Positions 8,142 to 21,716 of a DNA stretch of 64,000 bases are shown here, in pieces; positions within the stretch are counted from its first letter, which is position 1; each line of letters opens with the position of its first letter. Origin of the DNA: Bacillota bacterium. GTDB taxonomy: Bacteria; Bacillota; Sulfobacillia; Sulfobacillales; Sulfobacillaceae. The stretch covers positions 1 to 64,000 of the forward strand of contig JAJZZA010000003.1 in NCBI GenBank assembly GCA_021797825.1, given 5' to 3'. The notes beneath the pieces were generated by a model. It did not search any database. It saw only the letters and a list, made by a program, of their open reading frames with translations, and was not told where the DNA came from. A program made the position numbers and the translations under genes.

Positions 8142-8460
8142 CTCCTGGTCTTTGGTCCATTATCGCTGTGGCCCAGATTGATTGCAATGGAGCCGTGGTG
8201 CCAAGCGGGTTTTGTTCTGAACCACAATCTTTGGCCCTGGCGGCACGAGCGCCCCAAGACCGGGACTGACGACGAAACGTCCGTCCGGTGCGTCGTGTCC
8301 GCGGGACCCCCTCCGTTACCGCGGCGCGCGGTGGAAAGGTTCGCGCCGTATAGCCTTAACTTGCGGGGCCTTCCGTTCCTCAGTAAGATGCGTCTAAAAC
8401 GACTGTGGCGGTGATGGCGGTCGGATCGCAGCACCGAGCCTTGGGGTTGGGAGAATCTCT
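8142..8460. other. Divergent intergenic region between the YbaK-like and PDO-like genes
   Basis: It holds the AGGAGG site of the minus-strand gene at one end. At the other end is GGGAG at 8449-8453, the ribosome binding site of the plus-strand gene, 7 nt before ATG 8461. No gene, RNA or clear promoter hexamers were recognised between them. Confidence 0.4.
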
Positions 8461-9036
8461 ATGTGGGACAGTTTGTTGTTGCCGGTGGTCATTTGGGAAG
8501 TGCCTGACGCACGCCCGGAGTTTGAACCACTATTGTTTCAAAACGCGCTGGTGACCCGGGTTTCGGCGCCGGTGCTACCTTTTGCCGGACCTTGGCCGTG
8601 GTACCCGAGACAACTGCCGCACTGGGGAGTCTCCTCTTGCCAGGAGACTCCCCGGACCTGGTTTGCCGGGGAGCCCAAAGGTCAGGAATGGCAATCGTTT
8701 CGCGATACCGTACTAGCGGTCGGCCGGGGTCGGCAAGTGCTGCAGCCGCTGATTCTCGACTCCGTTAGGCGGCTGACCCATGCCATAACCATCGTGGTAT
8801 TGACCACGCCCGGGTGACCGCAGTGTGCGCAGACCGTGCGTCTGGCTCATGCCATGGCCCTGACCCAGCCCAATATCCTGAGCCTGGCTGTCATGCTGGA
8901 GGAAGTCCCCACCCTTACCGGAATCTTGGGCATTAAGACCGTGCCGGTAACGTTTATTGGGTCGACTCGGGTGGACGGGCCGCTGAGTGAGTGGGTTCTT
9001 GCCCAACGCGTGACAGGATCCCCTCAGGACGGATAG
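8461..9036 (+). CDS. Protein disulfide oxidoreductase-like protein, candidate selenoprotein (TGA at codon 119)
   Basis: The frame from ATG 8461 (GGGAG 7 nt upstream) is interrupted only by TGA at 8815-8817 and continues to TAG at 9034-9036, 191 codons in all. Both halves together match a two-domain glutaredoxin-like protein disulfide oxidoreductase. Domain 1 (about 1-85) lacks a CxxC. A linker segment WFAGEPKGQEW and VLAVGRGRQ follow. Domain 2 begins IVVLTTPG, then the TGA, then PQCAQTVRLAHAMA, and later the cis-proline strand TVPVTFIG. The TGA thus stands exactly where the first cysteine of CPxC belongs, giving U-P-Q-C. A SECIS-like hairpin follows at 8830-8844. The alternative is a nonsense mutation of TGC/TGT. 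The last 83 bases overlap the convergent EamA gene. Confidence 0.6.
8622..8655 (+). repeat. Perfect 12-bp (14-bp with wobble) hairpin inside the PDO-like coding region
   Basis: GGGGAGTCTCCT (8624-8635) pairs perfectly with AGGAGACTCCCC (8642-8653) across a 6-nt loop. A G-T wobble and a C-G pair extend the stem to 14 bp. No T tract follows. It encodes part of domain 1 (around GVSSCQETP). Confidence 0.85.
8830..8844 (+). promoter_or_regulatory. SECIS-like hairpin after the in-frame TGA
   Basis: CAGAC (8830-8834) and GTCTG (8840-8844) form a 5-bp stem around the loop CGTGC. The loop begins 17 nt after the TGA at 8815-8817 and has G as its second base. Published bacterial SECIS rules, as I recall them, ask for a 16-37 nt distance, a 4-16 bp stem and a G in the first two loop bases; all three are met. 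Outer pairing is poor, so the element is minimal. Confidence 0.4.
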
Positions 9037-14979: not shown

Positions 14980-15660
14980 TTAGCGATACTGCTGGCGCGA
15001 CCGGTACTGGATGGGGACCCGTCGGAGATAAGCGACCGGGACACTCCAAATATGGACCAGACGGGTAAATGGCGAAATGGCAAAAAGCAAAAAAGCCAAG
15101 GTGATATGAATCTGGAAGATCAGCGGGATGTGAACCATGAGAGCCAGGTTGGGATGCAACGTCAGCAGTCCCCGGGTCCAGGGACCGATGGTGCGGCGAT
15201 ACCCGTAAGGACCCACCAGGTTGTTATATCCCAGGGTTATGATATTGCCGGTGGTTACCACCGCCAACAGCAACAGCAACACAAGCAGGTCGGAAAGAGT
15301 GGAATTAACCCGCACACGCCGGTTGCCCAAACGCCGGATGAGCAAGATGACCAACCCGGTCCAGGTCAAAAGCCCGGCGGCCGCGCCCAGGATGTCGGCA
15401 TTGAGATGATACATTTCGCGTGAGATGCCGAGCGCCTGATAGAAGGCCACCGGCACCAAAAGCCCCATCACATGGCCTGCGATGACCATGAGGATGCCCC
15501 AATGAAATAAGGGACTTCCCCATTTCAAGAGACGGCGTTCCAAGAGTTCGCTCGAGCGAGCGTTCCAGCTCATTGGCCGATAGGCGTAGCGGTAAAGGCT
15601 TCCCGCAATCATTATCGCTAGACTGAGATACGGAAAGATCACCCAGAGAAACTGTTGCAT
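14980..15660 (-). CDS. narI: Respiratory nitrate reductase gamma subunit (cytochrome b)
   Basis: A 226-residue membrane protein with five helices. It anchors NarGH and passes electrons from quinol through two b hemes. Histidines in SPLFHWGILMVIAGHVMG and in MVHIPLIFQIHITLAFLL match the heme ligands of NarI, and the C-terminal SPFTRLVHIWSVP is the usual ending. The ATG at 15660 follows a GGGGAGG site. It is the fourth nar gene, 13 nt after narJ. Confidence 0.93.
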   Translation of the reverse strand: MQQFLWVIFPYLSLAIMIAGSLYRYAYRPMSWNARSSELLERRLLKWGSPLFHWGILMVIAGHVMGLLVPVAFYQALGISREMYHLNADILGAAAGLLTWTGLVILLIRRLGNRRVRVNSTLSDLLVLLLLLAVVTTGNIITLGYNNLVGPYGYRRTIGPWTRGLLTLHPNLALMVHIPLIFQIHITLAFLLFAISPFTRLVHIWSVPVAYLRRVPIQYRSRQQYR

Positions 15661-15673
15661 GTTGCGCCTCCCC

Positions 15674-16246
15674 TCACGGATACGCTGTTGGATAGGGCAG
15701 ATTTTCCAGGTCCGGGGCCTCGCGACGGCCCTCCCCCACCGGCTGATTGGCTTCGCCCAAGGCTCGGCGGGCCAGGTCCAGCAGCGGATAATAGGGATGG
15801 TTGAGACCGAGTGCCTGCGCGACTTGACCGAGTGCCTGCGCGGTGCGCGGCGCTAAGTCGGACGTAGCGGAAACCGGGCTGACGGCCAAAAACTCGAGCA
15901 GGAGCGGAATGTAGTCCGGGAGTTCGCCGTCAGCGGCTTCATACCCGGCCTGACTTAGGGTCTGGTTAAGGGCTGCCAATGCCTCGCCCCGTTCCCGGGC
16001 ATCGCCCAGTTCGTGCGCCGTGAGGTATAGCGTTCCCCGTTCGGACCAATCGAACGCCTCGACATAAATTTCCGCCAGGCGCTGCCAGCCCAGGCCATTT
16101 AAGGCCTCCAGCGCGCGGGCGAGATCGGGGCAGGAATGGGCCGCGGATGGATAGCGACTCGCAAAACGTTCCCGAAATTGCGGGGAGCCGGGATAGTCCA
16201 GAAATCCGGCAACCAACTTGAGCACGATACGGTCCTGCTCCGTCAT
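15674..16246 (-). CDS. narJ: Nitrate reductase assembly chaperone
   Basis: A 190-residue helical TorD/NarJ-family chaperone that binds NarG during molybdenum cofactor insertion and keeps NarGH from docking early. It has the family's LVAGFLDYPGS start, YVEAFDW, LTAHELGDARERG and YIPLLLEFLA. Its ATG overlaps the narH stop by ATGA (16246-16243), so the subunits are translationally coupled. Confidence 0.92.
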   Translation of the reverse strand: MTEQDRIVLKLVAGFLDYPGSPQFRERFASRYPSAAHSCPDLARALEALNGLGWQRLAEIYVEAFDWSERGTLYLTAHELGDARERGEALAALNQTLSQAGYEAADGELPDYIPLLLEFLAVSPVSATSDLAPRTAQALGQVAQALGLNHPYYPLLDLARRALGEANQPVGEGRREAPDLENLPYPTAYP

Positions 16247-17751
16247 CGGGTCCTCCCCGTTTTTGGCACATTCACCGTTTGCGGGGCTACCAAGCCGTGT
16301 GGTGGCGCCAATTCTTCCAAACTGCCGGCGCCCTGCGCGTAATCCAGATCCGGTTCGTGATTGCGGTCTCCGGTGGGGATGACGAACCGTTCGTGATATT
16401 TCGCTATCCCCAGCAGGCGCGCCATGGCGGAAACCTCCTCCACGGTTACGCCCGCTTCTGACAGAAGACGACTGGCGCTTAAGCCGTCAGCGACCGTTTG
16501 CGAGCGCATGTAAAGGCGCACCGCGGAGAGCCGCAACAGCGCCTGGCGGACAGGCGCCACCTCACCCGCAGAGAACAGCGCGGCCAGGTATTCGAGCGGA
16601 ATTCGCATTTGGTCCACCGCGGGCAGATACGCGTCCGCGACCATATGGTCCGCGTCGGCCAGGCGGGTGGTGATGGGACTTAGCGGCGGGACGTACCAAA
16701 CCATAGGCAGAGTGCGATATTCCGGGTGAAGAGGCAACGCGATACGCCACGCAATGGCCATTTTATATACCGGGGAACGCTGGGCCGCTTCAATCCACGC
16801 GTCGGAAAGTCCGCCTTGGCGCGCCTTTGCCGCCACTTCCGGATCGTGAGGATTTAAAAACACGCCTAGCTGGGCGGAATATAATTGGTGCGGGTCTGCG
16901 ACCGCGGCGGCTTCCCGCACCCGGTCCGCATCGTAGAGGATGGGGCCCAAGTAGCGGATACGGCCTACGCAGGTTTCAGCGCAGACGGTGGGCAAGCCCG
17001 ACTCGATGCGGGGATAACAGAACGTGCACTTTTCCGCCTTGTGCGTATTCCAGTTAAAGAACACTTTCTTGTACGGACAGGCGCTGACACAAAACCTCCA
17101 GCCCCGGCAGGCGTCCTGGTCGACCAGCACGATCCCGTCTTCCTCCCGCTTGTACATGGCGCCGGAGGGACAGGCGGCAACACAGGCGGGATTGAGGCAA
17201 TGGTGGCAAATTCTCGGCAAGTACATCATAAAGGTCTCTTGGTACTCAAGGGCCACGTGTTCTTGCAACTGGGCCAAGTTGGGATCGCGGGCGGCGATAT
17301 CGGGTGCGCCCGCCAAATCATCGTCCCAGTTTGGTCCCCAGAGCGGTTTTTCCATAACCTCTCCGGTCAGCAACGAATGTGGCCGGGCGACCGGCTGGCG
17401 GGTGCGGCGCGGACCATCGACCAGGGTTCGGTAGTCATACGTCCACGGCTCGTAGTAGTCATCGATAACCGGCAAGTCTGGGTTGTAAAAAATTCGAGCC
17501 AGCTTGGCCCAGGTTCCGCCTGCCCGAAGTTTCAACTGTCCGTGCTCCGCCACCCATCCCCCGCGGTAATGCGCTTGATTTTCCCATTCTGTGGGATATC
17601 CCGGCCCCGGTCGTGTTTCCACGTTGTTGAACCACATGTATTCAGCCCCGGGACGGTTCGTCCAGGTGTTTTTGCAGGTGACACTGCAGGTGTGGCACCC
17701 GATACACTTGTCCAAATTCATCACCATGGCGATTTGGGCTTTAATCCTCAA
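16243..17751 (-). CDS. narH: Respiratory nitrate reductase beta subunit (Fe-S)
   Basis: A 502-residue iron-sulfur subunit that relays electrons from NarI to NarG. Cysteine groups are CIGCHTCSVTC near the N-terminus, then CHHCLNPACVAACP, then CRGWRFCVSACP, then CTFCYPR and CAETCVGR. The tryptophan in CRGWRFC marks the [3Fe-4S] cluster site of NarH. Translation starts at TTG 17751, inside the end of narG. AAAGGAGG stands 9 nt upstream, so narG and narH overlap by 11 nt. Confidence 0.95.
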   Translation of the reverse strand: MRIKAQIAMVMNLDKCIGCHTCSVTCKNTWTNRPGAEYMWFNNVETRPGPGYPTEWENQAHYRGGWVAEHGQLKLRAGGTWAKLARIFYNPDLPVIDDYYEPWTYDYRTLVDGPRRTRQPVARPHSLLTGEVMEKPLWGPNWDDDLAGAPDIAARDPNLAQLQEHVALEYQETFMMYLPRICHHCLNPACVAACPSGAMYKREEDGIVLVDQDACRGWRFCVSACPYKKVFFNWNTHKAEKCTFCYPRIESGLPTVCAETCVGRIRYLGPILYDADRVREAAAVADPHQLYSAQLGVFLNPHDPEVAAKARQGGLSDAWIEAAQRSPVYKMAIAWRIALPLHPEYRTLPMVWYVPPLSPITTRLADADHMVADAYLPAVDQMRIPLEYLAALFSAGEVAPVRQALLRLSAVRLYMRSQTVADGLSASRLLSEAGVTVEEVSAMARLLGIAKYHERFVIPTGDRNHEPDLDYAQGAGSLEELAPPHGLVAPQTVNVPKTGRTR

Positions 17752-20700
17752 GCCAGTCCACCTCCTTTAGCGGCCGAATCCAGGTCAAGGAATCCCGTTG
17801 ATGTCCAGTGGGGCCGTAATAGTTAAAACCGTAACTGAGCTGCGCGTAGCCGCCAATCATGTGCGTCACTTTGGGAATGATCCGGGTCACGCTGTTGTGC
17901 GTTCCCCCGCGATCCTGCGTCACCAGGCTTTTGGGCACGCCAATGGTGCGATCTTGCGCGTGGTACATCAGCGCGATGCCGGGGGGAATGCGATGCGAGA
18001 CCACGGCCCGGGCCACAATCGCCCCGTTGCGGTTAAACACCTCGATCCAGTCATTGTCGCGGATGGCGATCGCCTGGGCATCGTCCGGGTTTATCCAAAC
18101 CGTCTGCCCTCCCCGGAATAAGGTGAGCATCCGCAATGTGTCGGTGTATGTCGAATGAATCCCCCACTTTTGGTGCGGTGTCAAAAAACGCACCGAAATG
18201 GCCTGGTCCGGATTCGGCGCGGCGACCCCATCGCCGGCGCTGAAGGGCGGATAATCCAGGGGTGGCCGGTATAAGGGAAGGCCCTCGCCGTAATCGAGCA
18301 GCACCTCGTGGTCCAAATAGAATTGTTGGCGGCCGGTTAGGGTGCGCCAAGGGATCTTGTAGTCCACGTTGGCGGTAAACGGCGAATAGCGGCGGCTCTC
18401 GCTTTCTAAACCGGACCATACCGGGGATGCCAGCGCCAGACGGGGCTGCACGGTCAGGTCGTCGAACCGGTAGACAACCTCCTCGCGGCCGCGGATAGCT
18501 CGTTGTAAAGAGAGCCCAGTGGTTTTTTCCAAGGCCGTCCATTCTTGCACGGCGCGCTGACCATTGGTCGGCCCGGAGAGGGTTAAAATCGCCTCGGCGG
18601 CGTGTTTGGCCGACCATAGCGAAGGACGCCCCTGTCCCGGGCCTGGCCGTGTTGACAGGCCCACCCGCTGGGCGAGTTCGCCCACCGCCTGACTGCCAGC
18701 AATGCGAATGCCTTTGGCCGCGATGGCCTCATCCGCTAGCGGACCTAGGCTGGTCATCTGATCCAGGATGTGGGCGTAGTCGCGATGCACCATCACCAGA
18801 TGGGGCAGGGTTTGGCCGGGAACGGCGGCACATTCTCCCTGCCGCCAATCCCGTACTTTGCCGTGGGGTTGGGCCAATTCAGCTGGCGTGTCGTGCTGCA
18901 AGGGAGCCATGACCAGATCGTCAACTTCGGGAAGATAATCGGCGGCCAGGCGGGAAAAGGTTTCGGCTAACAACCGGAAGGCATCCCAATCGGTTTTCGA
19001 CTCCCACATTGGATCGACGGCCGGGTTCAAGGGATGCACGAAAGGATGCATGTCCGTGCTGCTGATGTCGTGTTTTTCGTACCAGGTGGCGGCCGGCAGC
19101 ACGATGTCGGCGTAGATGCCGCTCGAGGTCATGCGAAAGTCGATGTCCACCAGCAGGTCGACTTTGCCCTCGGGGATGGCGGGTGGCAGACGGATTGTTT
19201 TGGGCGCCCAGGCATTCTCCGGATTGGCCAGCACATGTCCCTCTGCCCCCAGCAGGTGCTTGAGGAAATATTCATGACCTTTGCCACTGGCGCCGAGAAG
19301 GTTCGACCGCCAAATGAAAAAGACGCGGGGAAAATTACGCGGGTCGTCCGGGTTTTCGACGGCCCAGGCCAGATCGCCGTGAACCAGTTGGTCTGCGGCA
19401 TACCGCACTACCGCCTCCGGGTCTTTGGCTCCCGCTGCCTGGGCTTCTTTTACCACCGTCAGCGAATTTTGGGTCCATTGCGGATAGGACGGCAACCAGC
19501 CCAGACGAACGGCCAGGGCGTTCATGTCGGCGGGATGTTGGCGGGCGAAACGTCCGCCATAGGGGGCACCCAAATCAGCGGGGGGCCTTTCTTCATAGCG
19601 AAACTGGTCGGTGGCAAAGTAGAAAAACGAGGTGCCATTATGTTGGCGCGGGGGGCGGAGCCAGTCCAAGGCAAACGCCAGAGTGCTCCAACCTTCCAAG
19701 GGGCGCACTTTTTCCTGCCCCACGTAATGGGCCCAGCCGCCGCCATTAACGCCTTGGCTGCCGGTCAGCAGCACCAAATTGATGATGGTCCGGTAGATTT
19801 GGTCGCTATGGTACCAGTGATTGGTGCCTGCCCCCAGAGCAATCATCGAGCGTCCGCGGGTGTCCGCGGCATTTTGGGCGAACTCGCGTGCCACCCTAAT
19901 CGCTGCCTGCCGTTTTACTCCGGTAATGGGTTCTTGCCAGGCGGGCGTGTAAGGCGCCGGGTCGTCATAACTGCGCGGGTAATCACCGGGCAAGCCCCGG
20001 TCGATGCCGACATGCGCCATCATCAGGTCGTAGACGGTCGCGACCCACGTCTGCCGTCCGTCTGCCGTGTCCAGATGTTTGGCCGGCACCCCGCGCTTTA
20101 TGGCCTGGCTGCTGTTTGCGCCAAAGTACGGAAAGGAAACCAGCAGCGTGGCATCATCGGATCCGCGCAAGCTTAACGCCGGATCAATCGTGCCGCCCGC
20201 TTCCGTCTTAAGACTCAGGTTCCACTGGCCGCTTTGATCCCAGCGGTAACCCAGACTGCCGAGGGGTACTCGTGGTGCTTTCGCTGCGGCATCCCACACC
20301 ACGGTTTTCCATGCGCCCTGGGGTTGGTCAGCGCCCAAGTCCTCGGCGCGCAAGAAGCGGTCGGCCGTCCACATCTCGTCTTTTTGGGCCAAGGTCACCA
20401 AGAAGGGCAAATCGGTATAGGTTTTAGCATATTCCAGGAAATACGGCGTCGGTTGATCGACGTAAAACTCCTTTAAAATGACGTGCGCCATGGCCATGGC
20501 CAAAGCCGCATCGGTTCCGGCCTTGGCGGGGAGCCACTGGTCGGCAAATTTGATGTACTCGGCATAGTCCGGGCTGACCCCGACGACCTTGGTCCCGTGA
20601 TAGCGCGCTTCGGTCATAAAATGCGCATCGGGCGTGCGCGTCATCGGCAAGTTGCTTCCCCAAATGATGAAATATCCCGCGTTGTACCAGTCTGCACTCT

Positions 20701-21427
20701 CGGGCACATCCGTCTGCTCGCCCCAAATCTGCGGTGACGCCGGGGGCAAATCGGCATACCAGTCATAAAAGCTGACGACCGTGCCTCCCACCAGTGACAA
20801 AAAACGTGAGCCCGCCGCGTAACTGACTTGGGACATGGCGGGTATGGGACTAAATCCGGCGATGCGGTCCGGACCATAACGTTCGATGGTGTCAAGCATG
20901 GCAGCGGAAATCATTTCGCTAACCGTCTCCCAAGCGGCCCGCACAAATCCTCCGCGGCCGCGGACTTTTTGATAGGCGAGGCGCTTTTGGGGATCCTCCA
21001 CGATCTGTCGCCAGGCCTCAACCGGAGGTGTTCCGGCGTCGCGCAATGCTTGCCAAAAATTTAGCAGTTCGGAACGCACGTATGGGTATTTGACCCGCCC
21101 CGGGCTATAGAGATACCATGAATAGCTCGCCCCGCGGGGGCATCCCCGGGGTTCGTACTCGGGCACGTTCTCGCCCAGCGGCGGATAGTCGGTTTGCTGC
21201 GTTTCCCAGGTGACCATGCCATCTTTGACATGAACCTGCCAACTGCATGATCCGGTGCAATTGACCCCGTGCGTCGACCGGACGACGCGATCGTGTTGCC
21301 ACCGTCTGCGGTAGACGCTTTCCCAGCCCCGGCTGCGCACAGATTCTTCCGTCCATCCCTGATTGATGCGATTACCTGGCTTGAGATAATCGAGCGTACG
21401 CCCGAGCGCATTGGTTTTGTCCGCCAT
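17741..21427 (-). CDS. narG: Respiratory nitrate reductase alpha subunit (molybdopterin)
   Basis: About 1228 residues, the usual NarG length. It reduces nitrate to nitrite at a bis-MGD molybdenum centre on the inner face of the membrane. The N-terminus has the [4Fe-4S] motif STHGVNCTGSC with a later CPRG. The Mo-ligand aspartate lies in WYADLPPASPQIWGEQTDVP, and TWYEKHDISSTDMHPFVH is typical of the family. A remnant twin-arginine segment precedes the cluster. The start is ATG 21427, because GGGAGG is positioned correctly there; the frame runs 31 codons further upstream without support. One nucleotide separates its start from the stop of the small upstream gene. Confidence 0.96.
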   Translation of the reverse strand: MADKTNALGRTLDYLKPGNRINQGWTEESVRSRGWESVYRRRWQHDRVVRSTHGVNCTGSCSWQVHVKDGMVTWETQQTDYPPLGENVPEYEPRGCPRGASYSWYLYSPGRVKYPYVRSELLNFWQALRDAGTPPVEAWRQIVEDPQKRLAYQKVRGRGGFVRAAWETVSEMISAAMLDTIERYGPDRIAGFSPIPAMSQVSYAAGSRFLSLVGGTVVSFYDWYADLPPASPQIWGEQTDVPESADWYNAGYFIIWGSNLPMTRTPDAHFMTEARYHGTKVVGVSPDYAEYIKFADQWLPAKAGTDAALAMAMAHVILKEFYVDQPTPYFLEYAKTYTDLPFLVTLAQKDEMWTADRFLRAEDLGADQPQGAWKTVVWDAAAKAPRVPLGSLGYRWDQSGQWNLSLKTEAGGTIDPALSLRGSDDATLLVSFPYFGANSSQAIKRGVPAKHLDTADGRQTWVATVYDLMMAHVGIDRGLPGDYPRSYDDPAPYTPAWQEPITGVKRQAAIRVAREFAQNAADTRGRSMIALGAGTNHWYHSDQIYRTIINLVLLTGSQGVNGGGWAHYVGQEKVRPLEGWSTLAFALDWLRPPRQHNGTSFFYFATDQFRYEERPPADLGAPYGGRFARQHPADMNALAVRLGWLPSYPQWTQNSLTVVKEAQAAGAKDPEAVVRYAADQLVHGDLAWAVENPDDPRNFPRVFFIWRSNLLGASGKGHEYFLKHLLGAEGHVLANPENAWAPKTIRLPPAIPEGKVDLLVDIDFRMTSSGIYADIVLPAATWYEKHDISSTDMHPFVHPLNPAVDPMWESKTDWDAFRLLAETFSRLAADYLPEVDDLVMAPLQHDTPAELAQPHGKVRDWRQGECAAVPGQTLPHLVMVHRDYAHILDQMTSLGPLADEAIAAKGIRIAGSQAVGELAQRVGLSTRPGPGQGRPSLWSAKHAAEAILTLSGPTNGQRAVQEWTALEKTTGLSLQRAIRGREEVVYRFDDLTVQPRLALASPVWSGLESESRRYSPFTANVDYKIPWRTLTGRQQFYLDHEVLLDYGEGLPLYRPPLDYPPFSAGDGVAAPNPDQAISVRFLTPHQKWGIHSTYTDTLRMLTLFRGGQTVWINPDDAQAIAIRDNDWIEVFNRNGAIVARAVVSHRIPPGIALMYHAQDRTIGVPKSLVTQDRGGTHNSVTRIIPKVTHMIGGYAQLSYGFNYYGPTGHQRDSLTWIRPLKEVDWLED

Positions 21428-21428
21428 C

Positions 21429-21716
21429 TCATAGTTCCTCCCGGGCGCTGCGCTCAACAGGCGGCAGACCTGAATTCCCTCGCGGCGATGATAATCCCGG
21501 CGCGCGCAATTGCCGTTCAAACTCCGCCCAGCCGGTTGCGTTTGCGGCGGCCAGCATCAAATCGCCGACGCGACTGGCCTCTTGAGTGGCGAACACGGCG
21601 GTTAGCACTTCATCCGAGACATTGCCAAAACGCAGGGTAACAATTGTCAACAAATCGGCCTGTTCGGATCTGGTTGCCAAACGCGTGTTGGCAGTGTGAG
21701 GCGTTTCGTCGGCCAT
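21429..21716 (-). CDS. Small uncharacterised protein coupled to narG
   Basis: A 95-residue soluble protein with the sequence LLTIVTLRFGNVSDEVLTAV and a helical stretch through GWAEFERQL. The RFGxxxxEV...EFE layout loosely recalls DUF4351-type tails, but I do not assign a function. GGGGAGGG stands before ATG 21716. Its TGA (21431-21429) is one base from the narG ATG, so ribosomes reading it would reinitiate on narG. It is the first gene of the nar operon. Confidence 0.6.
   Translation of the reverse strand: MADETPHTANTRLATRSEQADLLTIVTLRFGNVSDEVLTAVFATQEASRVGDLMLAAANATGWAEFERQLRAPGLSSPRGNSGLPPVERSAREEL

Follow-up and report, generated by a model that had tools for sequence, protein, structure and literature searches.

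Forms of the two-domain PDO family that carry selenocysteine (Sec) have already been described (Zhang et al. 2006; NCBIfam TIGR02187, 'PDO_seleno_TRX'). A Sec-containing 'homolog of AhpF, amino-terminal domain' was reported in Carboxydothermus and Symbiobacterium (PMC1794560), and TIGR02187 is listed with a UxxC motif in a table of a 2026 inventory (PMC13188914). A preliminary description of the DNA studied here had been aware of no described Sec form of this two-domain glutaredoxin-like PDO, but PMC1794560 and the TIGR02187 entry show that such forms are described. The literature on Sulfobacillus reports a Sec peroxiredoxin and formate dehydrogenases, and we did not find a Sec-PDO in it. To our knowledge, the active sites of the solved PDO structures are Cys-only. 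In the N-terminal domain of AhpF, the first of the two folds has lost its CxxC motif and the second keeps it.

In the present study we analysed a window of 64,000 nucleotides (positions 1 to 64,000 of contig JAJZZA010000003.1, family Sulfobacillaceae), in which the frame 8461-9036, running from ATG to TAG, contains a single in-frame stop, the TGA at 8815-8817. Re-reading of the sequence bears out the preliminary description in that the frame is otherwise open. Read with the TGA as U, the window protein has 191 residues (...IVVLTTPG-U-PQCAQTVRLAHAMA...TVPVTFIG...), and in the active-site stretch (...VLTTPG-U-PQCAQTVRL...) the TGA replaces the first Cys, giving a UPQC motif. The homologue set comprises 102 copies from 33 genomes of the family Sulfobacillaceae, and in their tree the window gene lies in a clade of 26 members with an SH-aLRT support of 100, hereafter clade A. 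The features of the locus are the following:

8448-8454, plus strand: possible ribosome-binding site TGGGAGA before the ATG at 8461 (read by eye)
8461-9036, plus strand: predicted selenoprotein gene for a two-domain PDO/AhpF-NTD-like thiol-disulfide oxidoreductase with Sec at residue 119 (translation, profile and model)
8461-8775 (boundary approximate), plus strand: N-terminal degenerate thioredoxin-fold domain without CxxC (translation, alignment and AlphaFold model)
8776-9033, plus strand: C-terminal glutaredoxin/thioredoxin domain with UxxC and the cis-Pro region (TVP, Pro162) (PF00462 and invariant residues)
8815-8817, plus strand: TGA predicted to be read as selenocysteine, Sec119 (codon counts in the 102 homologues)
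8824-8826, plus strand: putative resolving Cys122 of the UxxC motif (invariant in clade A)
8830-8844, plus strand: SECIS-like hairpin, stem 8830-8834/8840-8844 and loop 8835-8839 (covariation and protein-preserving permutations)

The window protein belongs to the two-domain PDO/AhpF N-terminal superfamily, showing tandem thioredoxin folds of which the second carries the (U/C)xxC motif and the cis-Pro. A profile of clade A has the P. furiosus PDO 1a8l as its first match (2.4e-18), with AhpF and further PDOs behind it. The structure predicted by AlphaFold (mean pLDDT 94.5, pTM 0.91) aligns with the AhpF N-terminal domain and with PDOs over about 183-217 columns, covering both folds, with TM scores to the query of 0.74-0.81. 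Residues 111-169, in the C-terminal half, match PF00462 with 26.8 bits, over the Pfam cut-off of 22.9. In the alignment the invariant positions of clade A are U/C119, C122, P162, which we take from the family to be the cis-Pro, E177-W178, W45, G70, P72 and L152.

Each of the described systems shares part of this build. The closest is the Sec AhpF-NTD homologue of TIGR02187 (ABB15282.1 in Carboxydothermus, and Symbiobacterium), with the same two-domain PDO-like architecture, the UxxC motif and the alternation between Sec and Cys; a paralogue of the window gene in its own genome, on contig C72, scores 159 bits with that model, which matches 26/26 clade A members (best E = 3.6e-22). However, the window protein reaches only 72.2 bits, over model positions 87-195, and the curated cut-off of this equivalog is 185, so that by score it is not a member, although it is predicted to work like one. 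It differs from TIGR02187 in its short, strongly diverged N-terminal half and in the clade A motifs W-F-x-G-x-P-x-G-Q-E and E-W. The archaeal and Aquifex PDOs (1a8l, 1j08, 2ayt, 2hls), likewise tandem thioredoxin folds, lead the profile search and stand near the top of the fold search, but the translation of the window gene has no CxxC before residue 119, so that the CxxC in the N-terminal domain of the archaeal type is absent, and the predicted nucleophile of the C-terminal domain is Sec. The top fold match is the AhpF N-terminal domain (1hyu, 1zyn, 4xvg), from which the window protein differs in standing alone, its gene encoding no flavoprotein domain, and in the Sec proposed for the first Cys. 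With Sec glutaredoxins (PF00462) it has the UxxC in common, in a two-domain PDO architecture rather than a single glutaredoxin domain. New here is a divergent and order-restricted subfamily, clade A, inside an unusual radiation in which a single genome holds as many as four Sec paralogues; with the window gene, the Sec-containing PDO/AhpF-NTD group gains this subfamily. Annotation is likely to list the gene as truncated, since the UGA passes for a stop and the protein lies beyond the range of the family model.

We propose that SelB, with Sec-tRNA(Sec), would recognise the hairpin 8830-8844 and insert Sec at the UGA 8815-8817, and that the product would be a 191-residue two-domain thioredoxin-fold protein whose N-terminal domain lacks a CxxC and whose redox centre, U119-P-Q-C122 in the C-terminal domain, would face the cis-proline. 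The selenolate would then probably attack a substrate disulfide or persulfide, Cys122 would resolve the mixed bond with formation of a selenenylsulfide, and the latter may be reduced by an enzyme of the thioredoxin-reductase type. The role is likely thiol-disulfide reduction and possibly persulfide reduction.

A functional alternative is that the Sec protein acts chiefly on persulfides or polysulfides, together with rhodaneses and persulfide dioxygenases, and not as a general protein-disulfide reductase. A rhodanese gene lies within 3 kb at 9/25 loci of the family, in six genomes, against 0.41 expected by a Poisson test that ignores the common ancestry of neighbourhoods. A profile search with a 7-row alignment gave six loci, including one in S. 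acidophilus AMDSBA3 and L139 in Sulfobacillus harzensis DSM 109850, an orthologue of the window gene; five of the six, clade A loci L136-L139 and L141, are near rhodanese-family ORFs, and L136, L137 and L139 are also near a related metallo-beta-lactamase-fold ORF. On the other hand, no rhodanese was detected on the 89.9-kb contig of the window gene, which is flanked by genes for a tRNA-editing-domain protein and for an EamA transporter, the ORF of the latter being convergent and overlapping the last 83 bp of the window gene (8954-9036). Rhodanese proximity points to sulfane-sulfur chemistry at the level of the whole family and says nothing specific about the window gene, and we consider a chiefly persulfide-directed function possible, if rather unlikely. 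Still more tentatively, Sulfobacillus-like sulfur and metal oxidisers may have radiated one selenoprotein family into at least four Sec subfamilies, with as many as four Sec copies in one genome, as a dedicated selenol system reducing persulfides or polysulfides with rhodaneses, the window subfamily of which has been missed by annotation models; we are doubtful of this broader scheme.

We are highly confident, from the comparative evidence, that the window gene encodes an intact selenoprotein of the two-domain PDO/AhpF N-terminal type, with Sec inserted at 8815-8817 by means of SelB and the hairpin. At the Sec119 column the 102 homologues carry TGA in 72 copies, TGC in 21 and TGT in 9, with neither TAA nor TAG, so that an in-frame UGA (72 copies) is aligned with a conserved redox Cys (30 Cys codons), and in 72/72 TGA copies a Cys follows three residues past the U. 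The TGA falls on the catalytic Cys, as had been claimed, and the alternation between Cys and Sec for which the preliminary description had recommended a search is found at exactly this codon; in relatives, where it had looked to further disruptions as a possible counter-sign, the frame is intact. Over the whole tree at least 10 Sec/Cys switches are counted, and the Cys members of clade A belong to the sister genomes G003 and G004, in which no Sec machinery was found over cut-off, and to G016 and G019, which have kept it. Up to four Sec paralogues occur per genome in this lineage. When 398 genomes of the phylum were scanned, every match at clade-level scores (over 140 bits) belonged to the family, and within the order the clade also reaches G034 (TGA) and G041 (no TGA); at such scores clade A was found only in the order Sulfobacillales.

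The genome of the window gene holds four further homologues, three of them with TGA at the same codon:

C72:2476-2925 (L011): TGA paralogue, UPHC
C31:26081-26458 (L012): TGA paralogue, UPYC
C97:10840-11205 (L014): TGA paralogue, UTFC
C11:27936-28241 (L013): CxxS paralogue, CPHS, without TGA

The TGA paralogues on C72 and C31 are at most 350 nt from rhodanese genes and the one on C97 is about 2 kb from one, the C72 copy being also downstream of a metallo-beta-lactamase-fold ORF as read by eye. TGA occurs in none of the CxxS group (L013 and relatives, CPHS and similar motifs). The seemingly stop-broken gene of the window almost certainly encodes an intact redox enzyme whose active site carries selenocysteine, and with the three TGA paralogues it makes a set of four sister genes of this kind.

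Selection past the TGA was estimated from dN/dS, which takes the values 0.23 and 0.16 when the window gene is compared with the two nearest relatives that could be measured, and lies at 0.09-0.19 in other clade A pairs; these ratios indicate that selection downstream of the TGA is purifying.

The hairpin of the window gene is formed by CAGAC (8830-8834), the loop CGTGC (8835-8839) and GTCTG (8840-8844), starting 12 nt past the TGA with its loop 17 nt away; this geometry, a 5-bp stem with a G-containing loop, is identical to the one given in the preliminary description. A full 5-bp stem at the equivalent position is found at 11/1463 TGAs on both strands of the window, and a full stem together with GT at loop positions 2-3 at the TGA of the window gene alone among the 1463. 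Numbering the UGA as positions 1-3, the pairs are 16-30, 17-29, 18-28, 19-27 and 20-26, and the small apical loop just past the UGA reads NGUNC between stem halves 16-20 and 26-30, with G at loop position 2, a register presumably similar to the one in E. coli fdhF. When the window sequence is folded by itself (51 nt), the minimum-energy structure does not contain the hairpin, and TGA rows differ only modestly from Cys rows in folding (mean z of -0.85 and -0.30, respectively, for positions 1-48), with nothing significant over the other spans; column-pair tests were therefore used, and the support for the hairpin comes from comparison among homologues. No Rfam model matched the hairpin.

In these tests synonymous codons were swapped among rows, leaving all proteins unchanged. 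The TGA rows have 352/360 cells paired against 338.9 +/- 1.6 after permutation (0/2000 as high), whereas the 30 Cys rows, with 105/150 against 106.3, show no excess. Within clade A 104/110 cells are paired against 94.1 +/- 2.0 (0/1000), and the signal persists after thinning (0/1000 at under 75% identity, 1/1000 at 65%); in the rows that do not belong to clade A the stem varies so little that the permutation test is without power. By column counts, 94.5% of the cells in clade A are paired, with 14 two-sided changes against 3.7 expected (0/500 shuffles), and a covariation score of 0.41 against 0.14, slid controls staying at or below 0.09. The SECIS-like element that had been claimed therefore covaries across clade A, and the permutations indicate that the coding constraint does not account for all of this covariation. 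Some compensatory changes also alter the amino acids, as in CAG..CTG (Gln..Leu), GAG..CTC (Glu..Leu) and CAT..ATG (His..Met), and such changes (Gln..Leu, His..Met) make a SECIS constraint on protein sequence directly testable.

Several of these results bear on the possibility that the window gene is a pseudogene, in which a nonsense change from TGC or TGT to TGA ended the protein at residue 118. One base change would be enough for this, and transposase-like fragments are present elsewhere in the window; however, the same codon is TGA in 72/102 homologues from many genera and four times in the same genome, the frame has no further disruptions, selection past the TGA is still purifying (the window gene having an omega of 0.16-0.23) and the hairpin covaries, and we regard this explanation as very improbable.

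The source genome, a 3.59-Mb draft of 156 contigs that is 97.5% complete, encodes the complete Sec machinery for which the preliminary description had suggested looking: a tRNA-Sec (74.8 bits; anticodon tca by ARAGORN), selA (544 bits), selB (345 bits) and selD. The last of these, at C46:59066-59995, carries an in-frame TGA, and selenophosphate synthetase, the selD product, is probably itself a selenoprotein here and across the family Sulfobacillaceae. For G003 and G004 the searches gave no selA, selB, selD or tRNA-Sec over cut-off, and each of the five PDO-family copies in these two genomes is a Cys form. In this lineage a single selenoprotein family has thus multiplied and repeatedly switched between Sec and Cys, and genomes without the Sec machinery carry Cys forms only. 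TGA copies are also kept in G015 (three copies; selA and selD present and no selB over cut-off in an incomplete draft assembly) and in G032 (a 63% complete draft with no selA, selB or selD over cut-off), for which assembly gaps are the simplest reading. A tRNA-Sec was not found in G008, G015, G023 and G032, which is not counted as evidence because for most genomes the scoring covered only 150 candidates, and because selA is present in three of these four.

Decoding of the TGA as one of the standard amino acids, by a suppressor tRNA or under an altered code, would agree with the clear coding selection on the downstream frame. Nevertheless, TGA terminates 9/37 long ORFs of the window and 30/102 of the PDO homologues themselves; it is an ordinary terminator here and therefore the code is not reassigned. 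Furthermore, in the PDO family TGA replaces the catalytic Cys only, and tRNA-Sec, selA, selB and selD are present, so that we give this explanation practically no weight. A sequencing or assembly error at 8815-8817, conceivable in a draft of 156 contigs, is extremely improbable in view of the TGA at the orthologous codon in independent genomes, including the two- and three-contig assemblies G017, G018 and G020.

Elsewhere in the window, transposase-like ORFs are present on the minus strand at 1195-2264, one of them (1198-1752) with a weak, sub-cut-off match to an ISL3-type Pfam model. A block at 14980-21520, also on the minus strand, resembles a respiratory nitrate reductase operon narGHJI, as read by eye from the ORF translations.
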